From Sphaerochaeta sp. (lineage in GTDB: Bacteria > Spirochaetota > Spirochaetia > Sphaerochaetales > Sphaerochaetaceae), in assembly GCA_016342655.1 (NCBI GenBank), contig JAEINL010000001.1:62001-126000 (forward strand): a stretch of DNA of 64,000 nt, given 5' to 3'. Every line of letters begins with the position of its first letter. The stretch's first letter is position 1. Both the position numbers and the translations under genes were made by a program. Under the pieces are notes generated by a model. It ran no database searches and was not told the origin of the DNA. It was given only the letters and a program-made list of their open reading frames with translations. Positions 16,931-63,606 of the stretch are shown here, one piece after another.

Positions 16931-16968
16931 CCGAGCAGGCTGAGTCCCGGTCTGCCCGGTTTTCTTTT
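16931..16968 (+). terminator. Terminator-like hairpin in the greA leader (attenuator candidate)
   Basis: Within the leader, CCG-A-GCAG-GCTG pairs with CGGT-CTGC-C-CGG (16931-16959; about 11 pairs including two G-U pairs and one mismatch, five-base loop). TTTTCTTTT (16960-16968) follows at once. That is the full signature of an intrinsic terminator, placed between the promoter and the greA ribosome site at 16994-16998. It should reduce greA transcription unless polymerase reads through. Confidence 0.6.
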
Positions 16969-21330: not shown

Positions 21331-22875
21331 TCACTTTCCCTTAAGCATCCGAAGAAACGGTATGTTGGCAATGGTATAAGAAAGAAGCGTTACCCCTACC
21401 CCCACTCCTCCAAGGAGGGTCACCAAGCCCAGGTTTTTTAGTGTTGAACCGCTTACATACCACCTCAGTCCAAGAGTGCTGTAGAGGATACAGAGGGCCG
21501 ACAGGGGGATGTTTGCCAACACTACGCGCACCAGGCCCTTTGCGAGTGCCTTGTCCCTGTACAGGGGATAGCGATCACGCAGGATGTAGGCAAGCCATAC
21601 AAAGCAGAGGCTGAACGAAATGATTGATGCCAGGGGAAGGGCGATTATTCCAAGCCCTCTTCTGATGAAGAGCCACATCAGGGCAATATCAAGGATGCTC
21701 ATGAAGGCAGTTACCTCAGTCATGGTCTTATGGCGTTCTACGCTGTAGCCCACCCTCTGCATAAGGCCAAACCAAGCGGCGCTGGTCATGCCCAACAGGT
21801 AGTACCTGAGCACCTTTGCTGTGAGGTTTGCATCAGCGAGGGTATAGTTTCCAGTCTGTAAGACTGCAGATACACTTTCATTGCTGAGGGCGAACAGGAG
21901 AATAGTGCTTGGAAGGAGAAACGTGAGGAGGTTAATCAGCGCCTCACGTGATATTTTCTGCAATTCATCATGCCTTCCTAGACCATAGGCTCGACTCATC
22001 AGAGGGAAAGAGACCGCTACTATCGCATTGAAGAAGATACCGTAGGGAGCCTGCCAAAATATCAGTGAGTTACTGAACGCTGTCACACTGCCTTCCGATA
22101 GGGAGGATGCATACCAGAAGGCGACCATCTGGGCAATGACCACAATGATCGAACTGAACACCATCTGGACCCAAGATTTCATCAACGGTTTGAAAGGGGT
22201 GCCCCTCGTATCGAAAGCAACGTTCAGATGATAGCCATAGCGGCGTACGACAAGATACGAATAGGCCCCTTGCAGCACTCCCCCTGCAAGGGCGGAGTAC
22301 GCCATGCTCATAGCTCCAAAATAGGGATGCAGGAACTGCACACCAAAAATGACAGAGAAGGAAAACAGCAAAGGGGCTGCATGGGAGTGGAAGAAACTCT
22401 TATGGCAGTGCAACAGCCCATTGAAGATGGAACCCACGCTTATAGTGAGAAGATAGACCATAAAGAAAGGGAGCAAACGGGCCCCGAGGATGAGCTGCCC
22501 TGCGTCAAAGTCAGAGAAAAAAGCCAGGAGAGGCTCCCCATACAGGTAAGAGACCAGTACCAGAGGCAGGAGAATAAGGGTCTGATACGTGCACAGCAGG
22601 GCAAAAAGACGTTTGGAAGTTTTTGTATCCTCACTTTCGATGAGACGGCTGAAAAAGGGGATGATCGAAGCGTTGATAGCACCCTCTGCAAAGATCTTAC
22701 GGAAGTTGTTGGGGATGTTGAAGGTGAAGTTGATCACATCAGCGGTGCCGCTGGCCCCGAAAACTGAACCAATGACTCTAGCCCTGACAATACCGAGCAC
22801 CCTACTGGTGAGGGTGCAAAGCATCACTATGACGCTGCTTCTTGCCGCAGCCTTATCTTGCGTAGAATCTTGCAA
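21331..22875 (-). CDS. murJ: Lipid II flippase MurJ
   Basis: Inner-membrane flippase of about 514 aa, moving lipid II outward for peptidoglycan synthesis (MviN family). The N-terminal family block SSVIVMLCTLTSRVLGIVRARVIGSVFG is followed by FNIPNNFRKIFAEGAINASIIPFFSR. About fourteen hydrophobic helices are visible to the C-terminus. No ATG lies at the N-terminus. The TTG at 22875, six bases after AGAGGG, suits the family start; a TTG at 22914 is the alternative. The gene overlaps tgt by 23 bases and closes the long minus-strand operon. Presence of murJ indicates that a cell wall is made. Confidence 0.92.
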   Translation of the reverse strand: MQDSTQDKAAARSSVIVMLCTLTSRVLGIVRARVIGSVFGASGTADVINFTFNIPNNFRKIFAEGAINASIIPFFSRLIESEDTKTSKRLFALLCTYQTLILLPLVLVSYLYGEPLLAFFSDFDAGQLILGARLLPFFMVYLLTISVGSIFNGLLHCHKSFFHSHAAPLLFSFSVIFGVQFLHPYFGAMSMAYSALAGGVLQGAYSYLVVRRYGYHLNVAFDTRGTPFKPLMKSWVQMVFSSIIVVIAQMVAFWYASSLSEGSVTAFSNSLIFWQAPYGIFFNAIVAVSFPLMSRAYGLGRHDELQKISREALINLLTFLLPSTILLFALSNESVSAVLQTGNYTLADANLTAKVLRYYLLGMTSAAWFGLMQRVGYSVERHKTMTEVTAFMSILDIALMWLFIRRGLGIIALPLASIISFSLCFVWLAYILRDRYPLYRDKALAKGLVRVVLANIPLSALCILYSTLGLRWYVSGSTLKNLGLVTLLGGVGVGVTLLSYTIANIPFLRMLKGK

Positions 22876-23977
22876 GGTAGTCCCTCTTAAAAGAGGAGAA
22901 CCTGTCTTCGGCAATTGCGAGACGAACCTTCTCCATCAGACGGTAGAAATACGTCAGGTTGTGTTCGGTTGCAAGCATGCCACCTAGCATCTCCCCTGTC
23001 TTAATCATATGATGCATATAGGATCGAGAATACTGCGTACAAGCGGTACAGGGACAACCCTCCTCCAGAGGGGAATGGTCAAACTTATGCACTGCTTTCT
23101 TAAGGACTACTACCCCATCATCGGTGAAGATGGCACCATTACGGGCCATACGGGTAGCCAGTACACAGTCAAACATATCAATGCCGTTCTCAACTGCCTC
23201 CAGAATATAGTCAGGGCTTCCGATGCCCATGACGTAGCGAGGCTTCTCCCTTGTCACCAAATCTGCAGTATAGGCAAGAAATTCGCTGAACTGTTCGGAA
23301 CTCTCTCCAACAGAAAGGCCTCCGATGGCAATGCCAGGAAAATCCATGCTGTTGAAAAACTCAGAGCTCTCCTTCCTGAGTTCCTTGTAGAAGTTGCCCT
23401 GCACAATACCAAAGAGATTACCCCTAAACCCCTCGCCGAGACTCTCCCTATGGTTTAAGGCACGCTGTGCCCAGCTATGGGTTATGCGCATTGCCTCGGC
23501 AGCCGCTTTCAGGCTGATATCAGGTGGGGTGCAGACATCGAGACACATGGCAATATCACTGCCGATGACCCTTTGTATGTCGACCACTTTCTCTGGGGTG
23601 AAAAGATGCTTTGACCCGTCGATATGGCTTTGGAAGTTGACCCCATTCTGGCTGATCTTTCGCAATCCTGAAAGGGAGAATACCTGGAAGCCCCCACTGT
23701 CAGTGAGCAGGTTATGTTCCCAATGGGAGAAGTTGTGCAGGCCCCCAAACTGCTCAAGAACCTCAAGACCGGGGCGAAGGTAAAGGTGGTAGGTATTTCC
23801 CAGGATAAGCTTGTACCCGATCTTAGCCACATCCTGATGATACATACCCTTGACGGTACCATTCGTGCCTACAGGCATGAATACCGGGGTCTGTACCACC
23901 CCATGGCCAAGGTCCAGCAGACCAAGCCTTGCATTACTGTTTTTGTCCTTATGTGTCTCTCTGAAAATATTCTGCAT
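22853..23977 (-). CDS. tgt: tRNA-guanine transglycosylase
   Basis: Enzyme of 374 aa exchanging guanine-34 for preQ1 in tRNAs with GUN anticodons. The nucleophile/base-binding blocks TDSGGFQVFSL (about 93) and DVCTPPDIS (about 148) are present. GGLSVGE near 217 and the zinc site CPCTACTQYSRSYMHH (about 308) are intact. GAGG lies just before the ATG, inside the end of lptG. Together with queA further right (49346-50380) it provides the last two steps of queuosine precursor insertion and maturation. Confidence 0.96.
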   Translation of the reverse strand: MQNIFRETHKDKNSNARLGLLDLGHGVVQTPVFMPVGTNGTVKGMYHQDVAKIGYKLILGNTYHLYLRPGLEVLEQFGGLHNFSHWEHNLLTDSGGFQVFSLSGLRKISQNGVNFQSHIDGSKHLFTPEKVVDIQRVIGSDIAMCLDVCTPPDISLKAAAEAMRITHSWAQRALNHRESLGEGFRGNLFGIVQGNFYKELRKESSEFFNSMDFPGIAIGGLSVGESSEQFSEFLAYTADLVTREKPRYVMGIGSPDYILEAVENGIDMFDCVLATRMARNGAIFTDDGVVVLKKAVHKFDHSPLEEGCPCTACTQYSRSYMHHMIKTGEMLGGMLATEHNLTYFYRLMEKVRLAIAEDRFSSFKRDYLARFYAR

Positions 23978-23983
23978 ACTGCC

Positions 23984-25069
23984 TCAACGAAGAACGAGTC
24001 GTTCTGATATTGCTATCGATACTATCACAATCATGGGGATTACCATACCCCAAACAGGTTCTATGATCCCCTGTTTTGCCATGATAAGGCTCATCATCTG
24101 CACCACATAATAGATGACTGCAATGAACAGGCTGGTGATGATGCTAAATAGTAGTACGTTTTTCTTATACCTGTAGTTAATCGTACAAGCTATGAAAATC
24201 AGGACAAGGGGGGTGAAGGATCCAAGGATCCTAGTGGCAAAATCAGTGGCAGCCTCATACCAGAGCTTGGTATTGAGGACATGGATTTTCTTCAAATAGT
24301 CCAAGGCTGCTGAAATCTCCATCGTCTTTATGTCGCTGGATATGTTTCTGAAATACCTGGGTTCCAGGTCAAAGCCATCGATGACCATAGAGTTCTCTCT
24401 TCTTGAATCAACACGATGTTCTTTGGAATTAATGGTATGGATGACTACATCAGATAGCGTCCATACCCTACTCTTCTCATCCCAAGAGGCACTGGTGGCG
24501 TCGATACGAGTGAGCAGTCGCCCTCCCTCATCTTGTAGAACCAGTACCAGGGCCCTGAGGGTTTGGGTCTCATCATTGTAGCGGGAGGCATGGACAACAA
24601 ACCTCCCTTCAGGGTCACTGAGGGTGATGTTCCGATTGTCAAAGGTGCTGCGCAATCCAAAGAGCTCATCTTGGGTGACCTTTTTGCTTCTGGAAGAGGG
24701 AATGGCCACAAGTTCATTGAAACCGAATTGGAAGAGTGAAAAAAGGAATCCCAGGAGGAGAATGGGAATAATGATTTTCCTATAGCTGATTCCGGCATTA
24801 TAGAGGGAAATAAGCTCATTGTTGGCCTGCATCTGTGAAAGGTGGTAGGTGGCAGAAAAGAGTAATGATGGTGCAAGGGCAAATAAAAGGGCTTCTGGCC
24901 CATAGAGCAGAGTGAGCTTGAATATGGTGAAGGCAGGAACCTCACTTTGTACATAGGAGTCAAGATGCGTGAAGAGGTCGACACTGACTAGCATCAAGGT
25001 ACAGAGGACCAAGGTGATGAACCCAACCTTTGCAACTGAGCTGATGATATGCCTGTTGAGCAGTCTCAT
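23984..25069 (-). CDS. lptG: LPS-export-type permease LptG (YjgQ family)
   Basis: Inner-membrane protein of 361 aa, the LptG partner in the LptB2FG extractor, YjgP/YjgQ family. Hydrophobic helices lie at about 14-34 and 62-83, then a cytoplasmic coupling segment and a further helix near 100-118. A long periplasmic jellyroll-like region covers about 135-275, and three C-terminal helices close the protein. The start ATG at 25069 forms an ATGA overlap with lptF, so the long upstream frame is not used. Family assignment is firm. Which glycolipid a Sphaerochaeta-like cell exports with it is unclear, since many spirochaetes lack classical LPS. Confidence 0.85.
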   Translation of the reverse strand: MRLLNRHIISSVAKVGFITLVLCTLMLVSVDLFTHLDSYVQSEVPAFTIFKLTLLYGPEALLFALAPSLLFSATYHLSQMQANNELISLYNAGISYRKIIIPILLLGFLFSLFQFGFNELVAIPSSRSKKVTQDELFGLRSTFDNRNITLSDPEGRFVVHASRYNDETQTLRALVLVLQDEGGRLLTRIDATSASWDEKSRVWTLSDVVIHTINSKEHRVDSRRENSMVIDGFDLEPRYFRNISSDIKTMEISAALDYLKKIHVLNTKLWYEAATDFATRILGSFTPLVLIFIACTINYRYKKNVLLFSIITSLFIAVIYYVVQMMSLIMAKQGIIEPVWGMVIPMIVIVSIAISERLVLR

Positions 25070-26316
25070 AGGCGCCTCGTAAAGAACAACAGCAAAACAC
25101 CTACTGAAAACAGCAGTACATTGGGAGCCCATATGAGGAAAGCTGGGTTGAAGGAAACGGAGAATATCTGCATCTGGGCAAAAAAGAGCAAATACCAGTA
25201 TACGACTGCAACCAGCATGGAGAGGCCGAATCCTATCAGTCTCCCATGCTTCACCCTGAAGAAGGAAATTGAAAAAGTCAAAAAAACCAGCATGAAGCAT
25301 GCCGCAGAGAGGGCATATTTCTTGTTAAGCTCAGCCCTGTAGTACTGGTAGTAGAAATTAATGGGTTTGTCATTGTTCAGCTCAGTGATCTTGTTTTGCA
25401 ATTCTTCTCTGTGAACCGATTCTCCTACTGCCTGCACCCGAGTCAACTCCTCTTCTAAAGAGAGTATCTTTGTCTTGTAGATCTTGAGGTCTTCCAGCAT
25501 TGCAATCCTATACGTAGCAATGCGTTCCCTCAGTTCTCGTATGGAGAGTTGGGAGGGAAGGGCTGTAGCCAAGGAGGCCACCTGACCTGAGAAGTTCAGA
25601 TAGAACTGTGCCTGGTTTGCCTCCGAGAGGGTCCATGAAAAGATGTCCTTCTCATTCGAACTGAAAATGACTGGTTTTTCGAGGTCGAGGCGGTAGATGA
25701 AGTTCTGGAGGTCTATAAGGGTAACCTCCCCTTTAGGGGAGCTGAGGACCTGGCTGTCACCCTTCTTTGCAAGGTCGAAGAGGATGATGTCGTTGACGGT
25801 GGATCCATAGACTTCCTTGTTGACCATTACACGGTCTCCTATGGTGTTTGAAGTGTTGCTGATCAATTCCAATGTGGGCAGGTCACGCATCAGATTTGCA
25901 TAGAGCTCCTTATACTGGCGAGTGCTCCAAGGAAGGGCCTTGTCGGCGGTGAGGAACGTCGCAAAGGAGAAGCCTATTGAGATTATGATAATGGGGATGA
26001 AGATGCGCCTCATAGAGATGCCTGAGGATCGCATGGCAAGTATCTCATTGCTGCTGGACAGATCACCAATGACCATGCTGGAGGCGGTCAGTGAGCTGAA
26101 GGGAAAGGTATACAGCAAGAACTGGGGAATGGAAAGAAGTATAAGCTGGAATACAGCAAAGAAATTTACATCCTTCATCAGGATTCTCTGGGCAATGAGC
26201 AGGATTTGGTTGATGAAAAAAATAAAGAAAAAAAACATGAACGCCACAACAAAGGAGAGCAGATATTCCCTTCCTACATGTCGGTACACCAACATATGGC
26301 GTGCATTTCTAGCCAC
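25066..26316 (-). CDS. lptF: LPS-export-type permease LptF (YjgP family)
   Basis: Inner-membrane protein of 416 aa, partner of LptG. The N-terminal helices (about 18-45 and 60-85) surround FVVAFMFFFFIFFINQ. The conserved cytoplasmic EILAMRSSGISMRRI segment (about 100) couples to the ATPase. A periplasmic domain follows, containing a charged coiled-coil insertion (residues about 265-320), and three helices end the protein. The start is the GTG at 26316, six bases after AGGAG; the ribosome site lies in the last codons of dut, whose TAA is one base upstream. The lptF-lptG pair sits between dut and tgt; no lptA/B/C is in view. Confidence 0.85.
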   Translation of the reverse strand: MARNARHMLVYRHVGREYLLSFVVAFMFFFFIFFINQILLIAQRILMKDVNFFAVFQLILLSIPQFLLYTFPFSSLTASSMVIGDLSSSNEILAMRSSGISMRRIFIPIIIISIGFSFATFLTADKALPWSTRQYKELYANLMRDLPTLELISNTSNTIGDRVMVNKEVYGSTVNDIILFDLAKKGDSQVLSSPKGEVTLIDLQNFIYRLDLEKPVIFSSNEKDIFSWTLSEANQAQFYLNFSGQVASLATALPSQLSIRELRERIATYRIAMLEDLKIYKTKILSLEEELTRVQAVGESVHREELQNKITELNNDKPINFYYQYYRAELNKKYALSAACFMLVFLTFSISFFRVKHGRLIGFGLSMLVAVVYWYLLFFAQMQIFSVSFNPAFLIWAPNVLLFSVGVLLLFFTRRL

Positions 26317-26317
26317 G

Positions 26318-26761
26318 TTAAACTCCTGTTGAACCGAAGCCCCCTTGCCCCCGTTCAGTGGTTTCAAGGCTGTCTTTACGCACGAACGATACCTGAGCAT
26401 ATTGGGCGATCACCAGCTGGGCAATACGGTCGCCATGGTGGACGGTAAAATCCTGTTTGCCATGGTTGATAAGCAGAACCTGTATCTCCCCACGATAGTC
26501 AGCATCGATGGTACCCGGGCTATTGAGCACAGTAATGCCAAACTTTGCGGCAAGCCCAGAACGCGGTCGAACCTGCGCCTCATACCCTAAGGGAAGGGCA
26601 ATGTTGAGGCCGGTTGGAACCTTTGCATAGGAGCCGCTGGAAATGACAATATCCTGTTCAAGACAGGCGCAGAGATCTGCGCCTGAACTGAACTGGGTAG
26701 CATACGCCGGAGCTTTTGCTCCGGCTTGCAAGGTGATAGAAACGATCTCTTCTGTGGTCAT
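26318..26761 (-). CDS. dut: dUTP diphosphatase
   Basis: Trimeric dUTPase of 147 aa converting dUTP to dUMP and pyrophosphate. All five motifs are visible: [14 protein letters not shown] (1), RPRSGLA (2), [13 protein letters not shown] (3), [11 protein letters not shown] (4) and the C-terminal [10 protein letters not shown] arm (5). The length is standard. The start ATG overlaps the pnp stop codon (ATGA). Confidence 0.96.
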
Positions 26762-28863
26762 TTTGAGGTAAGAGCATCAACATAACTGAGGTTAAGCCTG
26801 TTCTGACGGTCAATTTCCATCAGCTTGACAGGAATTACCTGACCGACAGTCAAGACATCCTCTACATGCTGAACCCTCTCCTTGGAGAGCTTGGAAATAT
26901 GACAAAGGCCTTCCTTTCCAGGAAGAATTTCGATAAAAGCACCAAAGTCCATGATGCGTTTTACCGTACCTTCATAAATTCTGCCGACTTCAGGCTCCTC
27001 AATGATTGACTTGACCAGTTCCTTGGCGAGGTTAGCTGCTGCACTGGTCCGTCCGTAGATGGTTATTGTGCCGTCATCAGCGATATTGACCTCAGCACCA
27101 CTTTGGGCAGCGATTGCCTTGATGGTCTTGCCTCCGGTACCGATTACCGCACCAATCTTCTCTTCGTCAACCTTCATGGTCAAAATCTTAGGGGCAAGCT
27201 CACTGATTTCCTTTCTGGGAACCTTGAGCACCTCTTCCATTTTGCCGAGGATATGCATCCTGCCCTCTTTAGCTTGGGCGAGGGCTTTGGTCATGATCTC
27301 AGGGGTGACTCCGGCAATCTTGATGTCCATCTGGAAGGCTGTGATGCCGTCCTTCGTACCAGTTACCTTGAAGTCCATGTCGCCGAGGTGATCTTCCTCA
27401 CCGAGGATATCTGAAAGCACAACGTATTTGGCATAGTCAGCACCTTCGGTAATGAGACCCATGGCGATACCTGCAACAGGTTTCTTGATGGGAACACCAG
27501 CATCCATCAGGGAGAGACACCCACCACAAACGGAAGCCATTGAGGATGAACCGTTTGATTCCATGATATCGCTGACCACACGAATGGTATACGGGAACTG
27601 CTCTTTGGTTGGGATGACGGCCTGCAAGGCGCGCTGAGCAAGATGGCCGTGACCAATCTCCCTTCTGCCGGTTCCAAGACGACCAGTCTCTCCTACACTG
27701 TAGGGAGGGAAGTTGTAATGAAGCATGAAATTGCTGAAGTACTTATCCCCATCGATGGTATCGAACATCTGCTCGTCTCTGGAAGTACCCAAGGTTGTGG
27801 TTGCAAGACTCTGGGTCTCTCCACGGGTGAACAAGGCCGAACCGTGGGTTCTGGCAAGAAGGCCAACTTCACAGCTGATAGGTCTGATCGTATCGACAGA
27901 GCGACCATCAGTTCTCAGACCGTGGTTGAGAATAGAATCACGGAGAATTTCATACTCAAGTTCCTCAAACAGGTTCGCAAGCTGTCCATCCCTCTTGGGA
28001 TCCTCTTCCAACTCTGCTGCAAACTTTTCCTTTACTTCGTTTTGGGCAACTGCAAGAGCAGCATAGCGCTCCATCTTACCTTTAACAAATGAGGCAGTCT
28101 TGATCAGGGGTTCTGCAAAAGCCTTTACAGGAGTGAGCCAAGAAAGGTCTACCTTGCTTACGATGACAGGAAGCTTTTCCTTGCCTGCAAGTTTCTGCAG
28201 CTCTAGCTGGGCGTTACAAATGTCTACAATGACAGGTTGTGCTGTTGCAATGGCAGCAAGCATAAGCTCTTCACTGACCTCTTTGCCTCCGCCTTCAACC
28301 ATGGTGATGCCACCGCGGGTTCCCGCTACAACAATATCCAGAGTTGATTTCTCAATCTCAGAAAAGGTTGGATTCACTACATATGCGCCATCGACCATGG
28401 CTATCCTTACTGCGGCTATAGGGCCGTTGAAAGGGATATCACTGATGGTAACTGCAGCAGAAGCTGCATTCATGGCAATGATATCGGGAGTGTTGTTCAT
28501 GTCAGAGGAGACTACGGTCGGTACAATCTGGATCTCCCGACCAAAAGCCTTGTCAAACAGGGGACGCATAGGACGGTCAATCAGGCGGCAGACAAGAATT
28601 TCCTTGTCCTTAGGTCTTCCTTCCCTTTTGAGGAATCCACCGGGGATTTTTCCGGCCGCATAGTATTTTTCATTATATTCTACACTGAGGGGTACATAAT
28701 CGAGGGGTTCGGAAGGCTGGCGACCACTACAGACAGTTGCTATGACTGCACTTCCTTCGTAGTGTGCGTAAACAGTACCACTGGTCTGCTTTGCAATCTT
28801 ACCGGTTTCAAATACCAGTTCTCCCCTACCAATCTTTACGGAAACTTTTTTTACTTCTTGCAT
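26758..28863 (-). CDS. pnp: Polyribonucleotide nucleotidyltransferase (PNPase)
   Basis: Phosphorolytic 3'-5' exoribonuclease of 701 aa. Two RNase PH domains are present (first about 10-145; second about 310-540, with [13 protein letters not shown] and catalytic [16 protein letters not shown]). They are joined by a helical domain and followed by a KH domain ([12 protein letters not shown], about 565) and an S1 domain ([18 protein letters not shown], about 625). Length is normal. AAGGG precedes the ATG. The position after rpsO with a hairpin between is the common bacterial arrangement, where the hairpin is often a processing or autoregulation site. Confidence 0.97.
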
Positions 28864-28909
28864 TCTTTTTCCCTTCTTTGTTCTTTTTCCTACTTCGAAA
28901 AATGAAAAC

Positions 28910-28940
28910 AGCTCCTACAACCTGTTTGGTTGCCGGAGCT
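28910..28940 (-). terminator. Hairpin between rpsO and pnp
   Basis: On the minus strand AGCTCC and CAACC pair with GGTTG and GGAGCT around a five-base loop, with a two-base internal loop. TGTTTTCATTTTT follows. It fits a partial intrinsic terminator, or an RNase processing site controlling pnp. Confidence 0.7.
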
Positions 28941-28972
28941 ATCTAACTATTTTTTAGAGAATACCACCAACA

Positions 28973-29239
28973 CTACTTTCTTATCCCGAGATCTGCGATA
29001 AGGGAACGGTAAGCGTTGATATCATTGTTTCTCAAATATTTGAGCAGTCTTCTGCGCTTTCCTACCATCTGCAAGAGTCCACGGGTACCGGCATGATCCT
29101 TGGGGTTTCTCTTGAAATGGGGCTGAAGCTCATTGATGCGAGTGGTAAGCAAGGCAATCTGTGCCTGTGTCGAACCGGTGTTTGCAGCATCACCACCATA
29201 CTTGATGATAATTTCTTGTTTTTCTTCTTTCGAGATCAT
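28973..29239 (-). CDS. rpsO: 30S ribosomal protein S15
   Basis: Ribosomal protein S15, 88 aa. The family signature [22 protein letters not shown] lies at about 46-67, preceded by [12 protein letters not shown] and [13 protein letters not shown] stands eight bases before the ATG. The start overlaps the ribF stop (ATGA). It binds the central domain of 16S rRNA early in 30S assembly and in many bacteria represses its own translation. Confidence 0.97.
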
Positions 29240-30069
29240 AAAACACTCCTCTTAGCAATGCTAAGACATTTTGTACGTACTGCAGTGGTGTCCCACATTC
29301 CCTCTTCTGACTTGATCAGCAAGGAAGATTCTTCAAACAATGCAAGAACCTCCCATCTCTGACCATCAGAGAGGAGTATGGTAGCCTCATACAAGCCTGC
29401 CATAGGCAGAAGCTGCATGAATGAAGCGGTACGATACAGCAGGCCGTCTTCAGTGAATTTGGAAGGGTAAGCAACCAGATCCAGGGCATAGGGTCTGCCG
29501 AGCATACTTTGGACTTCTTCCAAAGCGCCCTCTAGAAGTTTTTGTCGCATCAATGTACTACTAGCAATCTCCCCTTTTGCCGTACGGACAAACGGGGGGA
29601 CTTCCACAATAGCACTAGGTGCTAATCGGGACAAATATTCCTGCAGCTGAACAGGTCCGGCGCTTGAAACCGGGGCACCGCAGCGGAAATCTTCTCCGAC
29701 AACCATCGCTTTCACCTGACAAAAAGAGCAGACGAATGCTAGGAACTCCTTAGCTGTGAGTTTACTGAATTCAGCAGAAAAGTCAATGACAACCAAATGA
29801 TCGATACCAAGTTTTGCCAAAATTTCCTCAAATTGCACATCAGAGGTGAGTCTGCTGTGTGCCGTTTGGCTTTTCATGAACATCTTGGGGTTTTTATTGA
29901 ACGTTATTGCCATGGTCTGCCAACCATGTTCTTTCGCCAGTTCAATATTGCGATTGAGAATCTTCAGATGACCCGCATGCAATCCGTCAAACACCCCTAC
30001 AGAGACACACATATCAGTTTGCCAGAGGACTGGGTGTCCGCAAAGATGCATGAAATCATACTTCTTCAT
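29236..30069 (-). CDS. ribF: FAD synthetase (RibF) with atypical C-terminal half
   Basis: Protein of 277 aa. The N-terminal nucleotidyltransferase domain is clear: [17 protein letters not shown] (about 22-38, with the HxGH-like GLHAGH), FNKNPKMF near 57, VVGEDFRCG near 123 and [13 protein letters not shown]-like [13 protein letters not shown] near 170. This part makes FAD from FMN and ATP. The C-terminal ~95 residues lie where riboflavin kinase should be, but the kinase signature (GxPTAN type) is not seen and the region is shorter than usual. So the gene may supply only FMN adenylyltransferase activity. It lies between truB and rpsO, abutting one and overlapping the other. Confidence 0.85.
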
Positions 30070-30960
30070 CTAGGACCTCACTTGTTCACGATAAATTTGT
30101 GCAATGATACGCTTCTCAACCAAATCAAGCACACAATAAAGTATACCTGTTGGTGAGTACACAGCGCCATACCGTCCATTACCAACTTCCCTGATAGTCG
30201 TATAGCTCTCAGGATACTTGCCGTTTACAAGAGAGAAAAGACGAGCATCCTCAATTTCCAACAAAGCCATATCCTCTATGCTTTTGATAAGGGTGTCAGT
30301 TCTGTCAACTGAAGCCAAAAGGGCCTCAGTATCCGCCGAAGGGACCGCATCCTGTAGGAGAAAGGGCCCTATCTGCGTACGCACCAGGTCTACCAGATAC
30401 CCGCGAGAGTTGCACGCCAGTGCAAGGTCCCTTGCCAAGGATCGTATGTAGGTGCCCTTGGAAACATGGATATCTGCTACAAGACGTTTGTTTGCAAAGG
30501 AGACCACCTCAAAGGAGTAGACACTGACAGGACGTTTTTCCATGACAACGACTTTGCCTTCCCTTGCTAGTTTTGAGGCACGTTTGCCTCCAATGTGTAG
30601 TGCGCTATACTGGGGAGGGCTCTGTTGGATATCACCAATGAATTGGGGAATGGCGTCTTGGATTTGTTCTAGGTTTGGTACAGCAGCTGTCGCAATGACT
30701 TCTCCCTCAGGATCGAGGGTATCTGTCTCCTTGCCAAATTCGATGGTTGCACGATAGCGCTTGTCCATGGTTGAGAAAACCTGGTTCAGCTTGGTCATGC
30801 TTCCAGTCAAAACAATCATGAGGCCCTGTGCAAACTTATCAAGCGTACCGGCGTGCCCTACTTTTGGGTCGACAATACGCTTGATGGTGCCAAGAGAGGT
30901 AAAACTGGTTACCCCGCTTGGCTTGTTAACTAGGAGTATGCTCGCTCTATTTCCCATCAT
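30070..30960 (-). CDS. truB: tRNA pseudouridine-55 synthase
   Basis: TruB (296 aa) makes pseudouridine 55 in the tRNA T-loop. Motif ILLVNKPSGVTSF is at the start and HAGTLDKFAQGLMIVL contains the catalytic aspartate in GTLD. YRATIEFGKETDTLDPEGE, SPPQYSALHIGGKRA and GTYIRSLARDL are all present. The ATG at 30960 is preferred to a TTG at 30975; either overlaps the end of rbfA by more than ten bases. Its stop is followed at once by the ribF ATG. Confidence 0.95.
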   Translation of the reverse strand: MMGNRASILLVNKPSGVTSFTSLGTIKRIVDPKVGHAGTLDKFAQGLMIVLTGSMTKLNQVFSTMDKRYRATIEFGKETDTLDPEGEVIATAAVPNLEQIQDAIPQFIGDIQQSPPQYSALHIGGKRASKLAREGKVVVMEKRPVSVYSFEVVSFANKRLVADIHVSKGTYIRSLARDLALACNSRGYLVDLVRTQIGPFLLQDAVPSADTEALLASVDRTDTLIKSIEDMALLEIEDARLFSLVNGKYPESYTTIREVGNGRYGAVYSPTGILYCVLDLVEKRIIAQIYREQVRS

Positions 30961-31303
30961 TGACCAGCGAATCAATCAGTGCATTAATCTTCTGGCCATC
31001 TCGAAGAGAAGTATCTGCCTTGAACTTGAGCACCGGCGTATTACGGGTCTTAAGGAAAGATCCCACACGTTTCTGGATAAAGCCACTGGCACTTTGTAAC
31101 CCTTCGACACTCTTGTGAAGATTATCCTCATCCAATACAGAGGAAATGAAAACCGTCGCAAAGGAGTTGTCGACTGAAAGCTCAACACGACTTACCGAGC
31201 AGAGGGTGCTCACATTCGGGTTCTTAACCTCCCCTTTGACTATCAGAGTGCTGATAGCCTCAGAGAGTTTAGCTTCTATACGTTTCTGGCTATATTCACT
31301 CAT
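30947..31303 (-). CDS. rbfA: Ribosome-binding factor A
   Basis: Small KH-like protein of 118 aa that helps mature the 5' end of 16S rRNA. The sequence shows the N-terminal RIEAKLSEAISTLIVKGEVKNP, the central VSRVELSVDNSFATVFIS and GFIQKRVGSFLKTRNTPVLKFKAD blocks of the family. The ATG shares one base with the infB stop (TAATG). Confidence 0.94.
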   Translation of the reverse strand: MSEYSQKRIEAKLSEAISTLIVKGEVKNPNVSTLCSVSRVELSVDNSFATVFISSVLDEDNLHKSVEGLQSASGFIQKRVGSFLKTRNTPVLKFKADTSLRDGQKINALIDSLVNDGK

Positions 31304-34137
31304 TACTTGACCTTCGTCTCCAATTTGCGGGCAACTTCTTCTGTCTCTACAATTTCCAGGATGTCTCCAGCCTGAAGATCATGGAAATCTTCCAGTCCGA
31401 TACCACATTCGAAGCCTTCTGCAACTTCCTTGGCATCATCCTTGAAACGTTTAAGACTTGAAATCTTGACCATCTTGGGATTGAGTTGGATAGAGTCACG
31501 GATGACCTTGACCAGACTGTTGCGCTTGACCTTACCACTGGTGACCATAGCCCCTGCAATGGTACCAATCTTGGGCACCTTGAAGGTTTCACGAACCTCA
31601 AGAGTTCCAATCTCAACTTCTCGAATTTCTGGAGCAAGCATACCTTCCATGGCATCACGTACATCGTCTACCGCATCATAAATGATGTTGTACTTGCGTA
31701 TCTCAACCTTCTCTTTGTCAGCAAGGGCCTGCGCACGAGGAGTAGGTCTGACATTAAATCCGATGACCAACGCATTGGATGCACTGGCAAGGGTGATGTC
31801 GCTCTCAATGATCGCACCGGCCGAAGCACGGATGACATTGAGATGAATCTCATCGTTCGAAAGCGCATCAAGGGTTCCCTGCAATGCTTCAACTGAACCT
31901 TGCACATCACCTTTGATAATGACATTGTATTCCTGGATAGACCCTTCCTTGATTCTTGAATAGAGGTTGTCCAAGGTAATCTTCTTGACGTTCCGGCTAT
32001 CGCCTACCCTTTCAAGTTCCTGTCTCTTGTTACCAACCAGACGGGCCTGTTTTTCATCCGCTGTTACCTGGAATGGATCTCCAGCACCGGGGATATTGGA
32101 TAGTCCAATAATCTCAACTGGTGTTGCAGGTCCTGCCACATCAATCTTGTTGCCCTTGTCATCAAACATCGCCCTGACTCTACCAGGGTAGACACCTGCC
32201 ACATAGTGATCGCCCTGACGCAGCGTACCGCGTTCGATAAGCACACTAGCGACAATACCACGTCCCTGGTCAATGCGGCTTTCAATAACCTTTCCTTCTG
32301 CCCTGCAGTTGGCGTTTACCTTCAGCTCAAGCATTTCAGCCTGCAACAGTACGGTATCGAGCAACTCATCAATTCCTATCTTTTTCAAGGCGGAAATCTG
32401 GCAGTAGAGTGTTGTCCCACCCCAGGCTTCGGGCATGAGGCCAAGGTCACTGAGCTGTTGCATTACCCTTTCGGGTTTTGCTTCAGGAAGGTCAATCTTG
32501 TTTATTGCAACGATGATGGGAACATTAGCAGCTCGTGCATGGTCGATAGCCTCACGGGTCTGTGGCATAACGCCATCATTGGCAGCAACGACAAGAATGA
32601 CAATATCGGTAACTTGTGCTCCACGGGCACGCATCATGGAAAATGCTGAGTGTCCAGGAGTATCAAGGAATACCACTTCGCCCTTACCTTCGAGAGCAAC
32701 CTTGTATGCACCGATATGCTGGGTTATTCCCCCAAACTCACCTTCAGCTACATTAGTGGAGCGAATGGCATCGAGCAACTTGGTCTTACCATGGTCAACG
32801 TGACCCATTACCGTAACGATAGGTGCACGATCGACCATATCCATGTCGGTTTCAGGTTCACGAGTGATAAGTGTCTCATCATACAAGGATACAAGATGTA
32901 CTCCACAGTTGTAATCACTACAGACAATCTCAGCCGTCTCAAAGTCAATCTGCTGGTTAATCGTCACCATCATACCCATCTTGAACAGTTTGGCAATAAT
33001 CTCACCAGCCTTAAGATTCATCTTCTTGGCAAGGTCTGAGACAGAGATGACTTCCATCATATCTATTTGCTTGGGAACAGAAGCGAGCTTTGCAGCTGCC
33101 TGCTCCTTTCTTCTCTGGATCTGGAACTCTTTTTCCTCTTCGGCATTTCTCTTCTTGTAGGAAGCGGAATTTCTCTTCTTGAAAGATTTCTTAGGAGTTC
33201 TCTCGTTCAGTTCGAGTTCTTGTCCACCACTACCAGGTCTTGGACCACTGCCACCCTGTCGATTGAAAGGAGGACGTCCGGGACCACCACCTTGTGGTCT
33301 GAAACCACCGGGACGGGGCTGGTATCCACCAGTACGGGGCTGATAGCCAGTTGTACCGGCAGGACGGGGGTTGTTACCCTGGTAGCCTGTACCGGCAGGA
33401 CGGGGGTTATTACCCTGGTAGCCTGTACCGGCAGGACGGGGATTATAACCCTGGTAGCCTGTTCCGGCAGGACGGGGGTTATTACCCTGGTAGCCTGTTC
33501 CGGCAGGACGGGGGTTATTACCTTGGTAGCCTGTTCCGGCAGGACGGGGGTTGTTTCCCTGATATCCTCCAGTTCTTGGAGCACCACCAGCCTGACCTTG
33601 GTATCCACTACCACCTTGGCGGTTACCCTGATAGGGAGGACGGGAACCTGGAGCAGGTCTACCCCCTACCGTCCCAGCAATACGAGGGCCATTGGAAGGT
33701 GGCGCCGGTGTCGGAGCGACCCCATTAGGGTTCTTGCTCTGCCATTCGGCATGATCTTTCACGGTCTGACCTTGGTTAGGTACCGGAGGAAGGTTGATAG
33801 GCCTTATTACAATGGGACCGGTATGCAGTGGGGAGGTGATAATCTTGTCCCCGGTAGAACGTACAGTTTTTCTTAATGTACCTATACGTTTCTGTCCAGC
33901 CGGTTTTTGTTCAGTGGTGGAAGTTGATGAATCAGTGCTTGAGCTTGACGCAACGGGCCGAGCTTGCGGTTTGACAACCACAACCTTCTTCTTCACCACA
34001 ACTACCCTTCTCTTTTCAGGAGACTTGGGTTTGGTTTCGGGTTCCTTAGGAGAAGTGTTCTTCTCTTCCTTGGCTTCCGATGGATGTACTACATGTTTGA
34101 TCAACGTTGCTTTTGGCTTGTTATTCTCTTCCGTCAT
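31303..34137 (-). CDS. infB: Translation initiation factor IF-2 with repeat-rich N-terminus
   Basis: IF-2 (944 aa), the GTPase that brings initiator tRNA to the ribosome. The G domain starts near residue 450: GHVDHGKTK (G1), DTPGHSAF (G3), NKIDLPEA (G4). The EF-Tu-like domain II, IF2 domain and C-terminal domain II follow to [12 protein letters not shown]2_N ([20 protein letters not shown]) is near 355. The first ~330 residues are low complexity: a Lys/Pro part, then a Gly/Tyr/Asn/Pro/Arg part with six tandem 12-residue units ([12 protein letters not shown]) encoded by 36-bp repeats at 33355-33570. Length is at the long end for IF-2 because of this. Confidence 0.97.
33355..33570 (-). repeat. 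Six tandem 36-bp repeats inside infB
   Basis: Units start at 33355, 33391, 33427, 33463, 33499 and 33535 and encode a 12-residue Gly/Tyr/Pro/Arg-rich peptide each. Units differ at only one to a few bases, so copy number is probably variable by slippage. The reading frame is kept because 36 is a multiple of three. Confidence 0.92.
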
Positions 34138-34156: not shown

Positions 34157-35662
34157 TTACTCTACCTCAAATGCAAGACCTGTACCACAGGTCGGGCACA
34201 CAGTCATATCGATGGTGATTGCCGAACCGCAGCTGGGGCATACATATTCGGTATCTTCATTTTCTTCATCTTCAACGATATCGACATACTCGTTGATAGT
34301 ATCCTTAATTGCAATGACCTCTTCCCCACTCAAATCTGAGAAAGAAGAGATATCATCCTCGGTGAGATTGATGAACTCCTCAACGCTGTACACATCATGG
34401 AACTGCAGTTTCTGCAACAATCGTGCATCCATTGGGAGGTCTGAAAGCGCAATCTCGTCTTCATCGACAAGACTCTCTTCAAGTACAGGGGGAGCCTCTT
34501 CCAAATCAGCTACTGTAACAGGGAACTGTTCATCAAACCTTGGAATCTCACCAAATTCATCAGGTTTCCCAAAGAAACTCTCTGCACGTGAACGGGCTTC
34601 GATAGCGATGTCCAACTCATTGAACTGGGCCTGGGTCTTCACATCAATGATCCAGTCCACAAGCTTGTTCGCAAGCCTGACGTTCAGACCTTGCTTTCCA
34701 ATTGCCAAGGAGAGCTGACTTTCGTCGACTATTGCCACTGCATGGAAAATGTTCTTGTCCAACACCACAACATCTTTTACCTGAGCTGGGGATAAGGCGT
34801 TGCGGATATAGTTCAGCGGGTTAGTGTCATAGCGAAGAATGTCAATCTTCTCCCCTTCTATTTCACCCATGATAGTCTGAATTCTATTTCCCTTCAACCC
34901 GACGCATGCACCAACAGGGTCGATTTCATTGTCGCGGGATGCAACAGCGACCTTGGATCGATAGCCGGCTTCTCTGACAATCTTGATAATATCAATCTGA
35001 TTCTGGGCAATTTCAGGAATCTCAACCTCAAATAGGTGTCTGATCAATTCGGTACTTGTCCTGGAAAGTACGACACGCACACCGCGTTCTGCCTTTTCCA
35101 CAGTCTCGACATAGCACTTGATCTTATCGTTGCTGCCATAGCTTTCACGGCTGGACTGATAACGTCTGGGTAGGATGCCTTCAGTTGAACCAATATCGAC
35201 ATAGATGTCACCATTGGGAACTTGACGGCGGAAGTATCCGATGATCAGCTGGCCTTCCTTAGCCTTGAACTCACTATAGAGGGTGTCCTTCTGAATATCC
35301 CTGAAGCTCTGGCGAGCCCTCTGTTTGGCGCTCTGAACACTGATACGGTCAAAATCCTTCAGGTCTACAGGGATGAGCAGCTCATCGCCAATTTCACACT
35401 CCTCATGAATTTCCTTGGCATCGCTTAGGGCAATTTCAGTAACTTCGTTGTACCAGTCATCATCATCGACAATCTTGCGTCTAGAACTAAGCTCAACAGA
35501 TGAGAAATCCTCATTGAATTCAATGACTGCATTCTCCTCTGTGCCAAACTTGCGCTTATAGGCAGCACGAAGAATCTCTTCAATAGTGTTAAGTACCAAA
35601 TCTTCTGAAATATTCTTTTCCGCTACCATGCTTCGGATAGCGTCACCTAAATCAGTTGCCAT
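34157..35662 (-). CDS. nusA: Transcription termination/antitermination factor NusA with C-terminal zinc ribbon
   Basis: NusA (501 aa) binds RNA polymerase and modulates pausing and termination. The N-terminal RNAP-binding domain covers about 1-125. An S1 domain is near 135-200 (GQLIIGYFRRQVPNGDIYVDIG) and two KH domains follow (PVGACVGLKGNRIQTI; SLAIGKQGLNVRLA). A helix-hairpin-helix acidic-repeat-like segment lies at about 415-475 (LPMDARLLQKLQFHDVYSVEEFI...). The very end is a zinc ribbon, CPSC-10-CPTC, not usual in NusA. GGAGG stands nine bases before the ATG at 35662; the longer frame would run further into rimP, which overlaps by 11 bases. Confidence 0.95.
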   Translation of the reverse strand: MATDLGDAIRSMVAEKNISEDLVLNTIEEILRAAYKRKFGTEENAVIEFNEDFSSVELSSRRKIVDDDDWYNEVTEIALSDAKEIHEECEIGDELLIPVDLKDFDRISVQSAKQRARQSFRDIQKDTLYSEFKAKEGQLIIGYFRRQVPNGDIYVDIGSTEGILPRRYQSSRESYGSNDKIKCYVETVEKAERGVRVVLSRTSTELIRHLFEVEIPEIAQNQIDIIKIVREAGYRSKVAVASRDNEIDPVGACVGLKGNRIQTIMGEIEGEKIDILRYDTNPLNYIRNALSPAQVKDVVVLDKNIFHAVAIVDESQLSLAIGKQGLNVRLANKLVDWIIDVKTQAQFNELDIAIEARSRAESFFGKPDEFGEIPRFDEQFPVTVADLEEAPPVLEESLVDEDEIALSDLPMDARLLQKLQFHDVYSVEEFINLTEDDISSFSDLSGEEVIAIKDTINEYVDIVEDEENEDTEYVCPSCGSAITIDMTVCPTCGTGLAFEVE

Positions 35663-36152
35663 GTGAATCGTCCTCCCATCTATAGTCGAGCTTTGCTTTC
35701 TGAATTCTTGCAAAGGGCACGACCATTGTCTCAATCAAATCTTGTGAATCGCCGATATAGGCAGTACTAAGGGTAACTGAACTATCATCGCTCGTTGTGA
35801 TCAGACCACTGACCCAATCACCATGCTCTGTATCATAGACACGTACTCGCTTACCCTCTAGAAGGGTGAATTCATACACATCCCTGATGGTTCTCTGCAA
35901 GCCTGGGGTGGATACCTCAAGTTCGAGATCACGTTCGTCTAGCTGCAACTCCATACGTGGATAGACGAGCTTATAGACTTTCGAACAATCAGATACATCC
36001 ACTTCACGGCCCTTGGTCATGATCGTAATATGCACCCCGACACTGAAGCCGCGGTCAACCCTGCTGATATCAACAAGGGTTATCCCTAAGGCTTCCAACA
36101 GCGGAGCATACTCCGCAAATAAACTTGTATTTTGTATTCCTGTTCCTAACAT
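35652..36152 (-). CDS. rimP: Ribosome maturation factor RimP
   Basis: RimP (166 aa), needed for 30S maturation. The N-terminal domain holds PLLEALGITLVDISRV, and the middle EVDVSDCSKVYKLVYPRMELQ and LELEVSTPGLQRTIRD (family motif EVSSPGLxRxL-like). The C-terminal SH3-like domain has GKRVRVYD. It is the first gene of the rimP-nusA-infB unit, as in most bacteria. GGAAAGG lies directly before the ATG, and a terminator hairpin lies 17 bases upstream. Confidence 0.92.
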   Translation of the reverse strand: MLGTGIQNTSLFAEYAPLLEALGITLVDISRVDRGFSVGVHITIMTKGREVDVSDCSKVYKLVYPRMELQLDERDLELEVSTPGLQRTIRDVYEFTLLEGKRVRVYDTEHGDWVSGLITTSDDSSVTLSTAYIGDSQDLIETMVVPFARIQKAKLDYRWEDDSHGN

Positions 36153-36169
36153 ACCTTTCCAATTGTCAT

Positions 36170-36198
36170 AAAAAAGGGATTCGCTTTCTAGCGATCCC
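36170..36198 (-). terminator. Intrinsic terminator in the rimP-nusA leader (attenuator candidate)
   Basis: On the minus strand GGGATCGC pairs with GCGAATCCC (one bulge, loop TAGAAA; 36176-36198) and is followed by six T (36170-36175). This complete terminator lies downstream of the rimP promoter and only 17 bases before the rimP ATG, so transcription of the whole operon must read through it. It could also end transcripts arriving from comF. Confidence 0.75.
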
Positions 36199-36224
36199 CC
36201 AATAATCAGACATATCCTACATGT

Positions 36225-36253
36225 ATAGTAAGCGGAACCCCCCCTCTTGTCAA
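36225..36253 (-). promoter_or_regulatory. Consensus sigma70 promoter of the rimP-nusA-infB operon
   Basis: Minus strand TTGACA (36248-36253), exactly 17 bases, TACTAT (36225-36230). The predicted start near 36218 gives a leader of about 65 bases that consists mainly of the terminator hairpin and the ribosome site. The spacer carries a run of seven G. Confidence 0.8.
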
Positions 36254-63384: not shown

Positions 63385-63606
63385 AAGATTCCTTTATGAA
63401 GAAAAAAGAGTAAGAACGCAACTATACAAGGAGCATTCTTGTCCCCCTATCCTAACACAAGCAGAAGAGGAATCTCAACCAAGAGGGAAAGGGAATCTGA
63501 AGAAAACCAAGGTGACCTCTTAGGTTTTTGGTTGTGCAATCATAATACAGTACCTTCATGAGTTCCCCCTATGGTTTCTAGAGTTCTATAAAAGAGCTCA
63601 ACATCT

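Follow-up and report, generated by a model that had tools for sequence, protein, structure and literature searches.

Attenuators upstream of rimP have been described in other bacteria. In the 302-genome survey of Naville and Gautheret (2010), rimP was placed first among the attenuator-bearing genes (PMC2965389). The passages of that survey on the general rimP-leader describe a conserved GGGc...gCCC stem, specific to rimP and with no antiterminator, and name NusA as the best candidate regulator (PMC2965389). According to the relevant part of a 2025 review, NusA of B. subtilis is autoregulated by NusA-stimulated termination in its own 5' leader (PMC12288461). For the rimP-nusA-infB operon of S. 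agalactiae, termination was reported 31 nt after the start and a negative NusA feedback was suggested, as given in the text on this operon (PMC4448216). A study of ProQ also listed the rimP leader among attenuator-derived small RNAs (PMC5391140). For spirochaetes, rimP is absent from the main text of a 3'-end study of B. burgdorferi (PMC10319736). The sequence-only reading of the present DNA had known of no such arrangement in this group, and a literature search outside supplements (that of the 302-genome survey included) likewise found no report of a spirochaete rimP leader.

The analysed stretch of 64,000 nucleotides of Sphaerochaeta DNA is called the window, and the features of the leader and operon found in it are given in Table 1. 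Judged by sequence and conservation, the element is a spirochaete form of the published kind of attenuator and is not new in kind; as in the definition of the rimP-leader, a predicted terminator lies in the 5' leader of rimP-nusA-infB. It is read here, with moderate confidence, as a rimP-leader-type attenuator of transcription that responds to NusA.

Table 1. Positions of the leader elements and operon genes in the window
Feature	Position	Strand	Basis
-35 box TTGACA	36248..36253	-	sequence scan; 65/72 family leaders with matching -10
-10 box TACTAT, spacer 17 nt	36225..36230	-	sequence scan
predicted transcription start (A), 7 nt past the -10 box	36218	-	inferred from spacing alone
5' leader segment AGGAUAUGUCUGAUUAUUGG, 20 nt	36199..36218	-	mostly unpaired in predicted fold
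predicted terminator hairpin GGGAUCGCU-AGAA-AGCG-A-AUCCC	36176..36198	-	fold and genus comparison
T6 tract, predicted transcript release site	36170..36175	-	sequence
ATG abutting the 3' end of the T tract	36167..36169	-	23/23 genus leaders
GGAAAGG, weak Shine-Dalgarno-like stretch	36154..36160	-	by eye
rimP	35652..36152 (ATG 36152-36150)	-	PF02576, 33.9 bits over cut-off; under NCBIfam cut-offs
nusA	34157..35734	-	TIGR01953, 373.8 bits
infB (IF-2)	31303..34137	-	TIGR00487
rbfA	30947..31303	-	TIGR00082
truB	30070..30975	-	TIGR00431
ribF-like FAD synthetase	29236..30069	-	match under curated cut-offs
rpsO (S15)	28973..29239	-	TIGR00952
second terminator-like hairpin, rpsO/pnp gap	28909..28941	-	fold -19.4 kcal/mol, then UUUUCAUU
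pnp	26758..28863	-	TIGR03591
dUTPase, two LptF/LptG-family permeases, tgt, murJ (end of 13-gene run)	21331..26761	-	profile matches

The promoter that had been proposed from the letters (TTGACA-17-TACTAT) is present on the minus strand at 36253-36225. The stem begins 20 bases from the predicted start and 26 bases from the -10 box, so that the earlier statement of a terminator within about 20 bases holds from the start and fails from the box. The six T were confirmed, while the stem, described earlier as having eight pairs, is a 23-nt hairpin in which nine pairs enclose a loop of four bases and a single base bulges from the 3' arm (36181, or 36180 in an alternative register). Its predicted fold of -11.5 kcal/mol (z -4.0) was equalled by 1 of 200 shuffles, and the last two G of the 5' segment are able to form G-U pairs with the T tract in the predicted fold. 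The distance from the T tract to the rimP ATG is 17 bases, as had been claimed, and this ATG lines up with residue 1 of many relatives. From the start placed by spacing to the end of the T tract, the predicted leader RNA is 49 nt long. An upstream open reading frame from the ATG directly after the T tract was considered and rejected by eye; its start is kept in the genus (23 of 23 leaders), and its length and sequence are not. Elsewhere in the window, hairpins with T-rich stretches lie at 63408-63445 (-) and 16931-16959 (+), with the next predicted gene starting 24 and 33 nt further on; these could be chance.

The 13-gene run from rimP to murJ is present. The further claim that every transcript of the run passes the leader is unproven: a single 13-gene transcript is not established because a stronger predicted hairpin, followed by UUUUCAUU, lies between rpsO and pnp. 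By its modelled fold this second hairpin is likely another terminator or a processing site, and it may split the run. On the other side of rimP, a comF-like gene lies 173 bp upstream on the same strand, and the leader could then be an insulator that halts readthrough from this gene and from mutS. The terminator is placed after the rimP promoter, and therefore meets the operon's own transcripts as well; it is also kept where no upstream match to comF was obtained, comF being matched at 29 of 78 loci, some of which are short. The role of an insulator is thus highly unlikely.

The letters of the window by themselves give a thin case against chance, because the counts of promoter-like and terminator-like sites equal those of shuffled sequence. 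Twelve promoter-like sites were found in 12 kb against 12.2 in shuffles, with the promoter of the leader among the two best-scoring (10 of 12), and a simple terminator scan of the window gave 11 sites against 9.9. The comparison of relatives was made in the family Sphaerochaetaceae, where 139 genomes were searched and NusA was found in 131. Leader regions were taken from 80 of these 131; two (L046 and L090) were cut short by the end of their contig and yielded no leader, which left 78 usable and, with the window, 79 leaders of 19 genera. A hairpin of -7 kcal/mol or better with a T tract, at most 75 nt from the rimP start, precedes rimP in 79 of 79 family leaders and in 31 of 790 shuffles. The terminator was again present in all 20 of the family leaders fetched later. 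Three further short family regions stand outside the count of 79; a leader and rimP are seen in two (L177, L178) and no rimP is visible in the third (L176). TTGACA with a matching -10 box was found in 65 of 72 leaders, at a median distance of 27 nt (range 11-35) from the -10 box to the hairpin in these 65. The predicted fold of the 72 leaders is dominated by the hairpin, with a mean pair probability of 0.96 and a lowest value of 0.73. At the level of sequence, this conservation settles the question and indicates that the terminator is not a chance feature. The earlier reading of an attenuator leader is backed by conservation that spans the family and extends to much of the phylum.

The sequence of the stem is specific to this locus. 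Of the 25 genomes of the window's genus, 21 have exactly one match to the pattern GGGATCGC-N5-9-N-ATCCCTTTTT, and the reversed pattern gave none. Twenty of these matches lie just upstream of nusA and the other, on a small contig (G107), directly before rimP, so that all 21 mark the operon. Among the four genomes with no match, three (G099, G103, G105) carry the leader, with an extra C ahead of a T5 tract, and the fourth (G096) also has no NusA match. A different stem (GAGUCG/CGACUC) marks this place in other spirochaete families. Its pattern, GAGTCG-N3-8-CGRCTCYTTTTT, gave 40 matches, falling at 39 sites, among 38 of the 99 genomes searched in the class (reversed control 0); at 38 of the 39 sites a nusA match follows on the same strand about 470-700 nt downstream, the exception being contig 64 of one genome (G405). 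The 99 genomes include nine of the window's family, which have other stems, and the exact GAGUCG pattern is unmatched in 52 of the 90 outside it, being common and not universal.

In the other families rimP was found at 57 of 59 loci, the two exceptions being L133 and L157 (L170 is a stray 201-base fetch). Three more short regions were added from outside the family, two of which were used (L173, L174). The hairpin finder gave nothing in 8 of the 57 leaders, among which three (L132, L135, L162) carry a GAGUCG hairpin farther upstream. The hairpins picked in the 57 leaders include 27 of the GAGUC type and six of the GAGUGG/GGGUGG type; these 57 had no shuffle control, and in several of the 49 with a pick (L115, L139, L143, L148 and L150 among them) the finder took another hairpin than the one nearest rimP. 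In three leaders of two families (L145, L149, L151; families f12 and f4), an upstream U/C-rich stretch could pair by eye with AAGAAGAG at the base of the terminator 5' arm.

The sequence-only reading had asked for hairpin co-variation among relatives; the hairpin is kept in 79 of 79 family leaders, and the covariation inside the family is modest. In an alignment of 22 chosen family leaders (A3), 98.5 percent of the lower-stem cells are paired against a shuffled mean of 93.5. One lower-stem pair is altered on both sides, from G-C to A-U in seven of the 22, and the other pairs vary little. The covariation score of this alignment beats 500 of 500 shuffles. Two of the five measures, the numbers of two-sided pairs and of pair types, do not rise above chance, being equalled in 486 and 500 of the 500 shuffled alignments. 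RNAalifold gives the same helix, and with 29 sequences (A1) it reported three pairs with two-sided change. Since few pairs vary in the family leaders, the stem sequence itself is unusually fixed. The single 3'-arm bulge is found in 23 of 23 leaders of the window's genus. Across the family it occurs in 47 of 74 leaders, spread over 12 of 18 genera, against 2 of 42 leaders of other families. The 74 leaders leave out four in which the wrong hairpin was taken (L076, L077, L078, L101) and one in which a long, odd hairpin was taken (L103); the sets of 72 leave out L104 and L105 as well.

These observations bear on two other explanations. A partial terminator might act as a fixed throttle that sets a constant output fraction with no feedback, and in the window's genus no antiterminator or ligand-binding structure stands out. 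A constant leak has no apparent need of the particular stem sequence and bulge that are conserved, and this explanation is considered unlikely. The stem or bulge might instead be read by another sequence-specific protein, such as IF2, RbfA, S15, PNPase, RimP or an unknown factor, which agrees with a clade-specific stem that occurs once per genome and with a bulge that is general in the genus, frequent in the family and rare in other families. By eye, and in the Rfam search, no ribosomal-protein-like target is apparent in the 49 nt, and RimP as the reader is disfavoured by a genome that keeps the terminator without a RimP_N match (discussed below; a missed gene is possible). Such a reader is accordingly given a low probability.

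The favoured NusA-responsive attenuator would work as follows. RNA polymerase would start near 36218 and meet the intrinsic terminator after about 45-49 nt. Some polymerases would stop there and release an RNA of about 49 nt, and others would read on into rimP-nusA-infB. The decision is proposed to be made by factors bound to the polymerase, because no competing antiterminator is predicted in the window's genus. NusA, the product of the second gene, would raise the fraction that stops, and its own operon would be held at a set point. NusA is a plausible sensor of the leader, feedback by NusA is most likely its function, and the leader probably lets the cell hold its own NusA level steady. The whole arrangement spans only about 50 nt, which makes feedback by NusA testable in one tube.

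Two genomes with no RimP_N match contribute to the question of what is sensed. In the first (G146, which belongs to a different class of the phylum), nusA is directly preceded by a promoter, a hairpin and a run of seven T (L157). A terminator kept without RimP_N speaks against RimP as the sensor and is compatible with NusA or the product of a later gene; the assembly is of 90 contigs and 94% complete, and a missed rimP is possible. In the second (G339, L133), the promoter lies directly before nusA with no terminator. A joint loss of rimP and leader would fit this arrangement, which is neutral or mildly adverse for sensing by NusA. The gene upstream of the latter locus looks comF-like by eye. 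The RimP_N profile misses some divergent RimP (G029 and G330, where our own searches find rimP); our own RimP HMM found no rimP in the 2.2 kb around the nusA start of G146 or of G339.

The evidence is not all on the side of NusA alone. NusA stimulates about 75% of the intrinsic terminators of B. subtilis, according to the relevant part of the review (PMC12288461), and a general effect of this sort would not by itself explain a stem sequence kept through a clade and almost absent elsewhere, which a sequence-specific reader would explain. With a modelled hairpin of -11.5 kcal/mol and a clean U6, the terminator would also not plainly belong among the weak ones that depend on Nus factors.

A structural switch, in which the 5' end of the transcript pairs with the terminator 5' arm as an antiterminator, was analysed in the same leaders. 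In the window's genus no upstream element competes with the hairpin beyond chance (median shuffle p 0.62, 23 leaders), and no signal was found in g12, g13, g14, g16, g17, g18, g21 and g22 (medians 0.5-1.0). In seven sister genera (g2, g7, g8, g10, g11, g15, g18) the predicted transcript starts with AGUUC, AGUUUC or AGAU, and from the second nucleotide on (nt 2-6) it can pair with the terminator 5' arm. With G-U pairs allowed, four to six pairs form in 24 of 29 leaders, three in four leaders (g15, g18) and none in one (L105). The median shuffle p was 0.003 for g11 (12 leaders) and 0.007 for g2 (9 leaders), 0.03-0.16 for g7, g8, g10 and g15, and 0.56 for g18; none of the remaining genera fell below 0.12. 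The g11 leaders are not independent evidence, because their sequence is nearly invariant. Among 20 leaders fetched after this prediction had been made, the 5' element was found in 19, with three to five pairs. At L181 the script chose a later AG than expected, and AGTTC is present there too.

Exchange of the arms gave a divided result. Leaders of the GGAAC type pair at -5.2 kcal/mol with their own arm and at -2.7 with a GGGAUC arm, and those of the GGAAUC type at -2.3 with their own, 0 with AC-type and -3.4 with GGGAUC arms; both types lose most of their pairing with arms of the opposite type (AUC or AC). For GGGAC leaders the own arm (-4.4) was hardly favoured over the others (-4.8 to -3.3), and outside g1 the GGGAUC leaders showed no preference. 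The pairing of AC-type arms is offset by one base from that of AUC-type arms. The predicted antiterminator hairpins are weaker than the terminators, and the whole-leader fold was matched by 5 of 200 shuffles for a g2 example and by 15 of 200 for a g11 example. Pairing of GGAU at the 5' end with AUCC of the 3' arm (only four pairs) was also considered and rejected, since by eye it is missing and uncompensated in L045 and L047. With the pairing of the sister genera on one side, and its absence from the window's genus and the weak arm preference of two leader types on the other, a structural switch is very unlikely to be what the element is.

A combined possibility is that some Sphaerochaetaceae have a leader that acts as a switch sensing the start site, with nucleotides +2 to +6 as half an antiterminator, and that the window's genus, without this half, has a bulged terminator whose reader is NusA or another protein. 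It is clearest in g2 and g11 and hinted at in g7, g8, g10 and g15, and as a whole it is regarded as quite unlikely. If it were true, whether the NusA operon is read in the sister genera would hinge on precisely which nucleotide the transcript starts with, or on its 5' end being trimmed or modified.

For the operon of E. coli, antitermination by a cold-shock protein has been proposed (Bae 2000, cited in PMC6511841); the authors of the citing paper, in the part concerned, disagree. The cold-shock domain (PF00313) was found in 0 of 138 Sphaerochaetaceae genomes, and the same search gave matches in nine of the 14 named control genomes. A role for a different RNA chaperone is conceivable; as an explanation of this leader, the cold-shock protein is extremely improbable.

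The Rfam model of the rimP leader (RF01770, gathering cut-off 47 bits) gave no match above the cut-off in 21 genomes and one among 14 control genomes. The window leader had no Rfam match at gathering level; the best weak match, Yfr19 at 22 bits against a cut-off of 70, was taken as chance. With its lineage-specific stems, the element widens the range of the rimP-leader to spirochaetes at large. The new points are the bulge of the genus, a family without a cold-shock-domain protein, rimP-less genomes with (G146) and without (G339) the terminator, and the possible antiterminator of the sister genera. The genomes lacking RimP_N and the lineage-specific antiterminator are natural experiments on what such leaders sense.

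The rimP-leader as outlined in the survey (PMC2965389) is resembled in the short terminator before rimP-nusA-infB, in the operon-specific stem, in the lack of a larger structure and in the distance of 4-130 nt from the gene start. The window has the GGG...CCC of the published motif GGGc(...)gCCC with a/u at the fourth pair (GGGa...uCCC), and many other spirochaetes have GAGUC or GAGUGG. It also differs from the published description in the conserved bulge of the window's genus and in the antiterminator-like 5' end of the sister genera; no larger structure or antiterminator stands out in the window's genus, from which g2 and g11 differ. With B. subtilis the locus shares a terminator in the leader of the same operon, as the review relates (PMC12288461), while the leader is given as 180 nt there (PMC2965389) and is predicted as 49 nt in the window. 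The compact leader is like that described for S. agalactiae, which belongs to another phylum and has RNA-seq support (PMC4448216). In the metY-rimP-nusA-infB operon of E. coli the same genes, terminators upstream of rimP and NusA feedback are found, according to the account of that operon (PMC6511841); unlike this metY-type leader, the window holds 0 tRNA genes. The sequence-only reading drew its comparison with E. coli alone; the closer precedents are the general rimP-leader and the leaders of B. subtilis and S. agalactiae.
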